Part shown: in pieces, positions 2,503 through 25,381 of the stretch
Layout of the letters: each line of letters begins with the position of its first letter
How positions within the stretch are numbered: position 1 is the stretch's first letter
IMG/VR virus record: IMGVR_UViG_3300025617_000096
Location: 1-26,419 of that record
Source: a virus
Length of the DNA: 26,419 nt
Strand: one strand, 5' to 3'
Made by a program: the position numbers and the translations under genes
Notes under the pieces: model-generated
The model's database searches: none
Seen by the model: the letters and a program-made list of their open reading frames with translations, nothing else
What the model was told of the DNA's origin: nothing

Positions 2503-2555
2503 CCCTAAGAGATAATACACCCTTATAGGGGAGTGTCTCTTAGGGTTTTTTTTTT
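2503..2555 (+). terminator. Intrinsic terminator enclosing a promoter-like motif
   Basis: The arms CCCTAAGAGA (2503-2512) and TCTCTTAGGG (2536-2545) pair perfectly and are followed by ten T residues (2546-2555). The 23-nt interval between the arms can pair further (CAC with GTG, CCC with GGG). It sits 6 bases after the stop of the lysozyme-domain gene and 20 bases before the next start, so it should end or reduce transcription between these genes. The interval also holds the ACACCCTTATAGGGG motif, which could restart transcription. Confidence 0.85.
2517..2531 (+). promoter_or_regulatory. Candidate phage RNA polymerase promoter (copy 1)
   Basis: ACACCCTTATAGGGG is repeated exactly on the - strand at 23223-23209, upstream of the other operon. 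The surrounding TAATACACCC...TATAGGGG recalls the T7 promoter (TAATAC and TATAGGG blocks) with the two blocks 2 bases closer together. The motif also contains a small dyad, CCCT-TAT-AGGG, which resembles the short-stem, 3-nt-loop hairpins used by the N4 virion RNA polymerase. Which polymerase would read it cannot be told from sequence. Confidence 0.55.
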
Positions 2556-16302: not shown

Positions 16303-16989
16303 TTATACCTCAAAGAAATCAGTTGGATTACGCAAGATATGAATACCGTTTGCTGTTTCCAGTAACTTCTCTTTCCAATTTACTATGCCGTATTTAGCTC
16401 TGTAAGCAGCAATAACACGCTTCTTACGCCTATTCATTGGTACACCTTTAAGCATTGCTTCTGCTTTCTTAGGGCCAATCTTAGGTAGTCCAGGCAGGTT
16501 ATCTGTTGGATCACCCTTAAGCATTTGAGTCCAGTAAAGAAGGTCTGCGGTATCAATATCGATTTCATAGAATTCTTCTTTCTTAGGATTGAAATGCTTT
16601 CCTGGAATACAATCAAGGTCTTTATCGATATGCACTACCGTAAAGTCTTGATTAAGACCAGCACACTCAGTTGCCTTGATACGCACCATATCGTCAGCTT
16701 CCATACCATCTGAGGGTATAGCAAGCCCTTTATCGATAATTAGTTGTATTAGTGGTCTAAAGAACTTAGCCTTTTCAGGTGGGTCTTTGCGATTAGACTT
16801 ATACTGTGGGCATAAGTTATAACGAAAGTTATCTTTACCAGCACAATAAATAATCCTTTCATCAGCCCATACAGGCTCAATCCAGTATTTATTCAATATG
16901 TTTTGATAGTTTTCAAATGCAGCATCAAGATCTGGTTGATCCCAAGCTGACTGATAGATACAACTATCAGCATCAATAATAGCAATCAT
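16303..16989 (-). CDS. 5'-3' exonuclease (FEN/T7 gp6-like)
   Basis: A 228-residue structure-specific 5' nuclease expected to remove RNA primers and degrade host DNA. Visible signatures are IIDADS (D6, D8), YKSNRK, GMEADD (metal-binding acidic cluster), IDKDLD and the helix-hairpin-helix block GDPTDNLPGLPKIGPKKA. These cover the normal catalytic and DNA-binding elements of the FEN family. AAAGGA lies about 8 bases upstream of the ATG. It is immediately downstream of the DNA polymerase gene (12-base gap), a natural partnership because the polymerase itself lacks a 5' nuclease domain. Confidence 0.93.
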   Translation of the reverse strand: MIAIIDADSCIYQSAWDQPDLDAAFENYQNILNKYWIEPVWADERIIYCAGKDNFRYNLCPQYKSNRKDPPEKAKFFRPLIQLIIDKGLAIPSDGMEADDMVRIKATECAGLNQDFTVVHIDKDLDCIPGKHFNPKKEEFYEIDIDTADLLYWTQMLKGDPTDNLPGLPKIGPKKAEAMLKGVPMNRRKKRVIAAYRAKYGIVNWKEKLLETANGIHILRNPTDFFEV

Positions 16990-20355: not shown

Positions 20356-20626
20356 CTTGTAGTGCCTCACGAAGATCTGATGTAATACCCATATTACCAT
20401 CCTCATCAATGATAATATTTTCTTCTACCATATTATCGAAACAAACACCAGAGAATTGTAGAAATAGAAAGAGATAGGCTAGCTCATCGTCTATCAACTC
20501 TTTCAGAGATAACCCATCTATTACTTCCCAGAGGCTAACGATCCCTGCTTCCAGCAATCGTTGCTCCTCATCCTCAAGGCTTACTTCGACTTTATGTTTA
20601 GGTTTAAAGTCGATGACATCACCCAT
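20300..20626 (-). CDS. Hypothetical acidic 108-aa protein
   Basis: Begins MGDVIDFKPKHKVEVSLEDEE, is strongly acidic, and has a hydrophobic patch (ELAYLFLFLQFSGVCF) in the middle that is too interrupted for a confident membrane call. Its ATG overlaps the TAA of the ssDNA-binding protein gene by one base (TAATG), so it is probably co-translated with it. Not recognised. Confidence 0.65.
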   Translation of the reverse strand: MGDVIDFKPKHKVEVSLEDEEQRLLEAGIVSLWEVIDGLSLKELIDDELAYLFLFLQFSGVCFDNMVEENIIIDEDGNMGITSDLREALQDAIKDIKRELTANDNSPE

Positions 20627-21111
20627 TAAAAGTCTACCTGCTCTTCAGTTTCTGATTCACCTTCAATGATATCAAAGTCTGTACCTGTGTTTGGTGTGTA
20701 CTCTTTGAGTTCTGTGATTTGTACTTTAGACAAGATGCTTGCCACACCTTTACGGCCACCTACATCATACGGATACTGGAATAGCATTACATTACCGATA
20801 CTACCATTACCTACCTTGTTTCCGTCCATGCTTTTCTTAGCACCGTCTAGTACTTCAGGCGCATCATTAGGCTCACCATCTTTCTTAAGTGCTTTACGCT
20901 TGACGTTTGTTTTGTAGAATACACCGTCATCATCTTCTTCTGTCTTGACATTGAGATAAAAGTCTTCCTTCCATTTCTTTGCTTCGTTCTTATCACGAGT
21001 ACGCATTTGCAGTTCCCACTGTAGTGTACCGAAAGGCTCTACAGGCTTTACCAGCTTAGCCCAGTGAAGTTCTGCATTACGAATAATCTCAGTTCGCTTT
21101 TCATTAATCAT
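20626..21111 (-). CDS. gp2.5-like ssDNA-binding protein (copy A)
   Basis: A 161-residue OB-fold single-stranded DNA-binding protein for replication and recombination. The N-terminal block IIRNAELHWAKL...PFG and C-terminal block GNGSIGNVMLF...GGRKG resemble the T7 gp2.5 core (IIGGGSKLKVKYS). The protein ends in an acidic tail closing with DF (ESETEEQVDF), the feature by which gp2.5 contacts the polymerase and helicase. A clear paralogue lies at 23970-24431. GAGGAA lies about 8 bases upstream of the ATG, which overlaps the preceding zinc-ribbon gene by 8 bases. A lysine-rich middle segment (about 40-95) is longer than in copy B. Confidence 0.82.
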   Translation of the reverse strand: MINEKRTEIIRNAELHWAKLVKPVEPFGTLQWELQMRTRDKNEAKKWKEDFYLNVKTEEDDDGVFYKTNVKRKALKKDGEPNDAPEVLDGAKKSMDGNKVGNGSIGNVMLFQYPYDVGGRKGVASILSKVQITELKEYTPNTGTDFDIIEGESETEEQVDF

Positions 21112-23166: not shown

Positions 23167-23207
23167 AAAGGGATACCTTAAAGGGATACCTTAAGGATAT
23201 ACCCTTT
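23167..23207 (-). repeat. 13-nt tandem repeat in leader, with fold-back
   Basis: AAAGGGATACCTT (read on +) occurs at 23167-23179 and again at 23180-23192, followed by the related AAGGATATACCCTTT (23193-23207). In the - strand transcript the last element (AAAGGGTATA) can pair with either copy of TATCCCTTT, giving two alternative hairpins. It begins 1 base inside the putative promoter's downstream edge and ends about 31 bases before the first gene, so it may act as an untranslated leader control element or a protein-binding site. Confidence 0.6.
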
Positions 23208-23208
23208 C

Positions 23209-23223
23209 CCCCTATAAGGGTGT
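23209..23223 (-). promoter_or_regulatory. Candidate phage RNA polymerase promoter (copy 2)
   Basis: The - strand reads ACACCCTTATAGGGG, identical over 15 bases to the + strand copy at 2517-2531, and preceded like it by an A-rich stretch. It points leftward into the gene run beginning at 23135 and lies 10 bases after the stop of the 51-aa gene. Two exact copies, each oriented with its downstream operon, argue for a promoter. Confidence 0.55.
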
Positions 23224-23233
23224 GTTTTAAGCG

Positions 23234-23969: not shown

Positions 23970-24431
23970 TTAGAAGTCTTGTGCTGGTGCTGCGTCAGCG
24001 CCTTCTCCTACTACTAAGTCAAAGTCAACACTTGCTTCAGGGTTGTAAGCTACAAGGTCAGTTACTTGCACAGCAATTAGAATAGTTTTACGACCACTGC
24101 GACCGCCTGTAGACCAATCATATGAGTATACAATCAAGTTACCTGTAGAGCCATTACCGATAGGGTCAGTAATAGGTGCTTTTTCATTGTTGACTACACG
24201 AATACTATTACTTTGGCCTTTATTATTTACAGCAGGGCGGTTAATGTTTAGTGCAAAGTTACCATTAGGAAGCTGTCTTACTTTACCGAATGGTGTCATT
24301 TCATCAATACGATCTTTACTGAATTCAATTTGAATATCGAATTGTTCTTTACCGAATGGATTCATTTCAGCTTTGTATACTTTAGCATAGTTGAGTTTAA
24401 CGTTACGAATAATTGAAGTTTGCTTAGTCAT
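23970..24431 (-). CDS. gp2.5-like ssDNA-binding protein (copy B)
   Basis: A 153-residue paralogue of the protein at 20626-21111. Shared blocks are IIRN-x-L-xx-AK (N-terminal), PFG-xx-Q, GNGS-x-GN, a GGR motif, VQ-TDL/TEL-x-YNP/YTP, and a final acidic stretch ending in DF (AAPAQDF). It lacks the lysine-rich insertion of copy A and its tail is less acidic. AAAGGAA lies about 9 bases upstream of the ATG. It is separated by a terminator from the genes to its left and by two dyads and a hairpin from the gene to its right, so it is probably controlled on its own. It may serve early replication or recombination, or bind a different partner than copy A. Confidence 0.8.
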   Translation of the reverse strand: MTKQTSIIRNVKLNYAKVYKAEMNPFGKEQFDIQIEFSKDRIDEMTPFGKVRQLPNGNFALNINRPAVNNKGQSNSIRVVNNEKAPITDPIGNGSTGNLIVYSYDWSTGGRSGRKTILIAVQVTDLVAYNPEASVDFDLVVGEGADAAPAQDF

Positions 24432-24458: not shown

Positions 24459-24488
24459 GTGCAACATTGCACTAGGACATGATTGTCC
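24459..24488. promoter_or_regulatory. Two adjacent dyads upstream of ssDNA-binding protein B
   Basis: GTGCAACATTGCAC (24459-24472) is a perfect inverted repeat with a 2-base centre, and GGACATGATTGTCC (24475-24488) has 4-base arms. They lie 28 to 57 bases upstream of the ATG at 24431. They could be operator sites or small RNA hairpins; the second overlaps the end of the neighbouring intergenic hairpin by 2 bases. Confidence 0.4.
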
Positions 24489-24522
24489 TTTAGACTACAC
24501 CCGTTAAGATGTAGTCAGAAGG
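24487..24522 (-). other. Conserved intergenic hairpin 1
   Basis: On the - strand CCTTCTGACTACATC, loop TTAACG, GGTGTAGTCTAAAGG. The stem has a 2x2 internal loop (CU facing UA) at positions 5-6 and starts directly after the TAG stop of the preceding gene. No T run follows, so it is unlikely to be a terminator; a ribonuclease processing site or mRNA stabiliser is more likely. It has two close relatives at 24893-24928 and 25346-25381. Confidence 0.7.
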
Positions 24523-25315: not shown

Positions 25316-25345
25316 TTAAAACTCCTTTTAGTTAATACAAAGTGT

Positions 25346-25381
25346 CCTTTAGAATACACCTCGAAAGGTGTACTCAGAAGG
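25346..25381 (-). other. Conserved intergenic hairpin 3
   Basis: On the - strand CCTTCTGAGTACACC, loop TTTCGA, GGTGTATTCTAAAGG. It has the same length, the same 2x2 internal loop and the same position after a stop codon (4 bases) as hairpins 1 and 2. Relative to hairpin 1, stem position 9 changes from a C-G pair to a G-U pair and position 14 from U-G to C-G, both keeping the pairing. Confidence 0.7.

Follow-up and report, generated by a model that had tools for sequence, protein, structure and literature searches.

A conserved, probable T7-type promoter motif in an uncultured phage family, with one copy probably enclosed by an intrinsic-terminator hairpin

The 15-nt sequence ACACCCTTATAGGGG, which occurs twice in the window (the whole stretch of virus DNA analysed here, 26,419 nt), is very probably a start signal read by the phage's own T7-like RNA polymerase. 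We consider it highly probable that the motif is a T7-type promoter for this polymerase and that one of its copies, named P3, is located within the loop of an intrinsic terminator. Judged from sequence and predicted folds, P3 and its hairpin would most likely act as a stop-and-restart element, in which upstream transcripts end and new ones begin. There appears to be an even chance that promoter and terminator constitute one jointly selected element, a self-excluding stop-and-restart insulator.

Results

Occurrence of the motif in the window

The window consists of two converging arms, a + arm that ends in three large virion-type genes and a - arm that carries replication genes, with the gene encoding a single-subunit RNA polymerase (RNAP) as its last large gene (Table 1). 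The exact 15-mer is found at 2517-2531 on the + strand, between the gene with the lysozyme domain and the gene for the 1354-aa virion protein (P3), and at 23209-23223 on the - strand, upstream of the replication arm (P4). Both copies are intergenic and in sense orientation relative to the genes downstream, and the two oriented copies reported in an earlier sequence-only reading were thus borne out by the sequence. No third copy with two or fewer mismatches was detected in the 26,419-nt window, which corresponds to the whole virus record. When the window was scanned with a weight matrix derived from related phages, the next-best place after P4 and P3 reached a score of only 10.6.

Table 1 Features of the window and promoter copies in the window and its relatives
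Feature	Position	Strand	Evidence and remarks
P1, promoter copy (relatives)			heads terminase large subunit gene; PHROG 2
P2, promoter copy (relatives)			heads ribonucleotide reductase gene; PHROG 84
P3, promoter copy (window and relatives)	2512..2531	+	-16 to +4; predicted +1 at 2528 (first G); weight-matrix score 30.1; heads giant virion-protein gene/operon
P4, promoter copy, replication arm (window and relatives)	23209..23228	-	-16 to +4; predicted +1 at 23212; weight-matrix score 32.1; orthologous sites in relatives; heads small genes at replication-arm start
Virion-type protein, N-terminal lysozyme domain, upstream of P3	34..2496	+	PHROG 7 endolysin, E 5.9e-41; frame open to left edge
Predicted intrinsic-terminator hairpin enclosing P3	2502..2546	+	arms 2502-2514 and 2534-2546; MFE -24.9, z -4.05
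Ten-T run right after P3 stem	2546..2555	+	sequence; T-rich tail in all P3 copies
Giant virion structural protein, 1354 aa, first gene after P3	2576..6640	+	PHROG 6958
Second gene of P3 operon, 1264 aa	6643..10437	+	no PHROG match
Probable bidirectional terminator at arm junction: inverted repeat flanked by A/T-rich sequence	10435..10493	.	arms 27 nt, 81% complementary
T7-type single-subunit RNA polymerase, 712 aa, predicted motif reader	10752..12890	-	PHROG 414, E 8e-103; Foldseek 1cez
First gene after P4, 103 aa	22824..23135	-	kept in relatives
Possible weak leader hairpin just past P4 start	23167..23207	-	z only -1.08

The sequence-only reading had also held that an exact 15-mer is unlikely to be shared by chance, and this argument fails, as dinucleotide-shuffled windows share a mean of 2.7 such 15-mers (range 0-11) and the window itself contains 7. 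A chance repeat could be accommodated by these counts; however, position, strand, and sequence of the motif are all conserved across relatives, and on this ground the explanation was rejected as having a negligible probability. Matches to host-type sigma-70 promoters showed no excess over shuffles, and such promoters were rejected as well. Exact 15-mer matches in IMG/VR beyond the family were discarded, many of them being chance-like, with different contexts and different G+C contents. The leader hairpin after P4 was not retained, since it was neither significant nor general, stable folds being obtained for few of the nine leaders folded.

P4 has on either side a different gene of the gp2.5-like single-strand-binding family (PHROG 112), located at 20626-21111 and 23970-24431 on the - strand. 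In the presumed early region, two hairpin-like 39-nt copies (82%) are present ahead of a gene start at 24484-24522 and 25343-25381; their middle part differs yet stays an inverted repeat. The gene at 15618-16313 (-) matches homing-endonuclease profiles, and its best PHROG is labelled 'NAD synthetase'. A gene of Roseobacter phage CRP-7 is likewise named 'NAD synthetase', and the label may be a propagated mis-annotation.

Distribution of the motif in related phages

RNAP-based searches of IMG/VR yielded 39 and then 78 contigs. Records with an RNAP 74-94% identical to that of the window were assigned to the near family, and those with 40-48% identity to sister families. Long related records were retrieved whole, oriented, and scanned for the motif, and the near-family count covers 33 records totalling 958 kb, the window among them. 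The related contigs are metagenomic, mostly incomplete, and include some near duplicates, and 20 non-redundant sites were obtained from them.

The pattern AAhACvCCCTWWWAGGG occurred 37 times in the 33 near-family records and in none of 20 dinucleotide shuffles, and because of this conservation the motif signal is taken to be real. The reversed pattern was absent from the same 958 kb. The palindromic core CCCTWWWAGGG was found at about 39 places, as compared with about 0.75 expected, and nearly all of these have AAhAC on their upstream side. To the left of the RNAP gene the motif is on the + strand in 25 of 25 cases and to the right of it on the - strand in 11 of 12, the single exception being a divergent P1 copy that heads the terminase gene; the orientation corresponds to the reading direction of the downstream genes. 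Longer records contain two to four copies. The further copies at other operon heads that the sequence-only reading had called for are present in these longer relatives, ahead of the terminase, reductase, giant virion, and replication operons. Some related records have a second copy beyond P4, further along the replication arm, and a few copies in relatives fall within reading frames.

In one relative (locus L139, 329-423), a gene for tRNA-Leu (anticodon TAA; 347-423) begins no more than about 10 bases downstream of a promoter copy, and this phage tRNA would therefore come from a phage promoter.

Structure of the putative promoter

The consensus of the sites is AAhAC[A/G/C]CCCT-WWW-A|GGGG. Over the 20 non-redundant sites, A-14, A-13, A-11, C-10, the CCC from -8 to -6, T-5, A-1, and G+1 to +4 are invariant; most of these positions were part of the search pattern, but -14 and -13 were outside it, and both are A in 20 of 20 sites. 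Information falls off at -17 and past +4, leaving a conserved block from -16 to +4. T7-type promoters span about -17 to +4/+6. The block seen here resembles them in its length of about 20 bp, its A/T-rich stretch from -4 to -1, and its G start, and several copies stand at operon heads and are oriented with transcription. The likeness to T7-type promoters that had been suspected from the window is well supported by the relatives. Transcription would start at the G run of the motif, which would be recognised by the phage's own T7-type RNAP.

Two other functions were considered for the motif. In a promoter of the N4 vRNAP type, which the sequence-only reading had also brought into play, the CCCT-WWW-AGGG dyad would be extruded as a DNA hairpin and transcription would begin some 11 nt further downstream. 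Most sites do preserve the dyad although its three central letters vary (TAT, ATA, TTA, TAA), and PHROG 2166, 'N4-like RNA polymerase', is a secondary match of the RNAP, whose best match is nevertheless PHROG 414, RNA polymerase. Sites with CCCTTATACGGG, CCCTTATAGGAA, or AGGAA break dyad pairs, so that a strictly compensated stem is not seen; the dyad would surround the start site instead of preceding it by about 11 nt; AAhAC upstream of the dyad (-14 to -10) is strongly conserved, which is unexpected for an N4-type hairpin; and conservation is absent around +9 to +12 of the predicted start in the 20 non-redundant sites. Because of the dyad-breaking copies and the lack of conservation where an N4-type start would fall, we regard this reading as very improbable. 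The near-palindromic core and the presence of several sites near gene starts would also suit an operator for a dimeric phage regulator. The conserved part is, however, asymmetric, with AAhAC on one side only, and is oriented with transcription, and a phage RNAP, which must have promoters, is encoded in these genomes while host-type promoter matches do not exceed those in shuffles; there is thus only a slim chance that the motif is an operator and not a promoter.

The phage-encoded RNA polymerase

The catalytic motifs IDGANNG, AKRGAMTRAYS, and VHDSF of the 712-aa RNAP align with those of the T7 enzyme and are invariant in the family, and residues equivalent to T7 D537, K631, Y639, and D812 are present. 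The structural model (mean pLDDT 76) retrieved mitochondrial and T7 RNAPs in Foldseek, including the T7 RNAP-promoter complex 1cez with a TM score of 0.73, and these two groups are the only solved relatives of the protein. Family profile and fold thus both place the protein among the T7-type single-subunit RNAPs. By RNAP, no isolate is closely related; the nearest is Roseobacter phage CRP-7, with 33.5% identity.

A specificity loop of about 45 residues is present between the GFPV and GISPNFVHS motifs. Within the near family, 80% of the loop is invariant, as compared with 57% for the whole protein; 55 of 650 windows of loop size in the RNAP are as invariant. The loop is replaced in sister-family RNAPs of 44-48% identity. 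As identity to T7 RNAP is about 18-25% and model confidence in the loop is low, the T7 recognition contacts are not mappable one to one. The pattern of loop conservation fits, rather than proves, a matched polymerase-promoter pair. The idea that one phage polymerase reads both sites is well supported by the relatives, the copies at operon heads, and the encoded T7-type RNAP. Since P4 is upstream of the RNAP gene, the enzyme would boost its own production.

The hairpin surrounding P3

P3 forms the loop of a 13-bp hairpin, a putative surrounding terminator that the sequence-only reading had missed. P3 was present in 14 of 14 records with a window-type downstream gene (44-100% identical) and absent from the 17 near-family records in which that gene is divergent (25-32%). 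In three relatives without P3 (G024, G028, and G031), a plain terminator-like hairpin was recognised by eye at the same place.

In the predicted folds of all P3 copies, the core occupies the loop, and the stem forms even when the promoter core is masked. Stem sequences vary (TAAGAGA, TAGAGAT, TTGGGA, TAAAGG), and the partner arms change along with them and stay complementary. MAFFT alignment of P3 misplaced stem arms of unequal length, and pair counts were dropped in favour of an arm-swap test, in which native arms gave a mean of -18.9 kcal/mol versus -12.6 kcal/mol for swapped arms and the native partner arm was the best one in 10 of the 14 records. The 11-nt core CCCTTATAGGG is unchanged in all 14 records while the stem varies, and this combination of a fixed core with a varying, complementary stem therefore suggests that both signals are kept separately and together. 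As in intrinsic terminators, the covarying stem contains G+C and is placed directly before a T run, which comprises ten T in the window and reads TTTTTTATTT or ATACTTTATTTT in relatives; about half of the tails are of the weak type (ATACTTTATTTT), and termination may therefore be partial. The Shine-Dalgarno sequence AGGAGG of the giant virion gene (2565-2570) lies beyond the stem.

RNA arriving from upstream would carry both stem arms, fold, and end where the T run lies. Transcripts initiated at 2528 would start inside the loop without the 5' arm, and would escape and extend into the giant virion-protein genes. Because the promoter would start transcripts inside the loop, the terminator stem would exist only in read-through RNA, and the last virion-protein operon would thereby be uncoupled from upstream transcription and would rely on new starts made by the phage polymerase.

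Alternatively or in addition, RNase III could cleave at the P3 stem. That the promoter reading holds and the hairpin serves chiefly for RNase III processing is an unlikely but serious alternative: T7 phi6.5 also folds in a hairpin loop without a T run, and at P2 of seven relatives a long A/U-rich hairpin, again without a T run, pairs the Shine-Dalgarno region of the reductase gene. In this sister arrangement, the ribosome-binding site of the reductase gene would be hidden in read-through RNA only. All P3 stems, however, end directly in T-rich tails, and the three relatives mentioned above keep their terminator-like hairpin in the absence of the promoter, observations that argue for a terminator.

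In two of the relatives lacking P3, the motif is found close to where the giant virion gene ends (G024, 9228, +; G031, 8779, +; oriented coordinates). In G024, it is about 107 bases ahead of the next gene, as if the promoter had been shifted one gene down.

Sister families

In two sister phages, a CCCTWWWAGGG core was observed upstream of a ribonucleotide-reductase-like gene (locus L211 of G035, 6206; locus L206 of G033, 9712; oriented coordinates). It occupies the place of P2, and the letters from -9 to -14 differ, in line with the different specificity loop. A sister-family consensus, TATACTCYCCTTWTAGR, near terminase and reductase genes was not adopted, as the sites are too few and some copies are readable either way; it serves as a lead only.

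Discussion

Our analysis assigns to an uncultured phage group its probable polymerase-promoter pair and maps the regulon, both deduced purely from sequence. A terminator with a promoter in its loop would be a compact natural part that separates adjacent operons without a gap, and polymerase-promoter pairs that are orthogonal to T7 are in demand as tools. Should related polymerases swap their loop and the recognition region together, as the few sites in the sister families suggest, promoter co-evolution would become testable.

For comparison with T7, promoter sites were read directly from the T7 sequence. As in T7 class II/III promoters, the conserved block measures about 20 bp and closes with an A/T-rich stretch, A at -1, and a run of G from +1, and both systems have a single-subunit polymerase and several promoter copies at operon heads. 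They differ in the recognition region (AAhACvCCCT here, TAATACGACTC in T7), in the number of copies (few here, 17 in T7), in the layout (two converging arms versus one direction), in the location of the polymerase gene, here placed where the replication arm ends, and in the length of the polymerase (712 versus 883 aa). Although a T7-like RNAP is present, the converging arms and the length of the longest relative, 57.9 kb, do not agree with the unidirectional genomes of about 40 kb of the Autographiviridae. The predicted fold of T7 phi6.5 likewise places a promoter in a hairpin loop, and there too only read-through RNA would form the hairpin, but the T7 stem has no T run, and the stretch presumably holds an RNase III site.

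The T4 late promoters of I-TevI, segB, soc, and e are located inside hairpins that sequester the ribosome-binding site and into which only upstream transcripts fold (PMC2988022). They resemble P3 in having the promoter within a hairpin, and P2 of the seven relatives looks similar, its Shine-Dalgarno region being paired. In T4, however, host RNAP is used together with phage factors and it is translation that is blocked, whereas P3 would stop transcription and has its Shine-Dalgarno sequence outside the stem.

Roseobacter phage CRP-7 has the same converging layout, with the RNAP ending the replication arm and giant proteins ending the other, but its genome is 58 kb long and only 16 bases separate the giant genes 34 and 35. 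The motif was not found in the 58-kb CRP-7 genome, which was accordingly dropped as another place of its occurrence, and the word "promoter" is absent from the CRP-7 paper (PMC6918029). LUZ100 is a T7-like phage that also has a diverged promoter consensus of its own, and a strong terminator follows its capsid gene; its promoters differ in having been mapped by ONT-cappable-seq, and the sections of that report consulted describe no promoter within a terminator (PMC10134795).

Searches of open-access papers retrieved no phage case of a conserved promoter nested in an intrinsic-terminator loop. The promoter-in-hairpin arrangement has partial precedents in the T4 late promoters and T7 phi6.5, and the promoter set itself is of a known type; what sets it apart is its nesting in a covarying, putative terminator.
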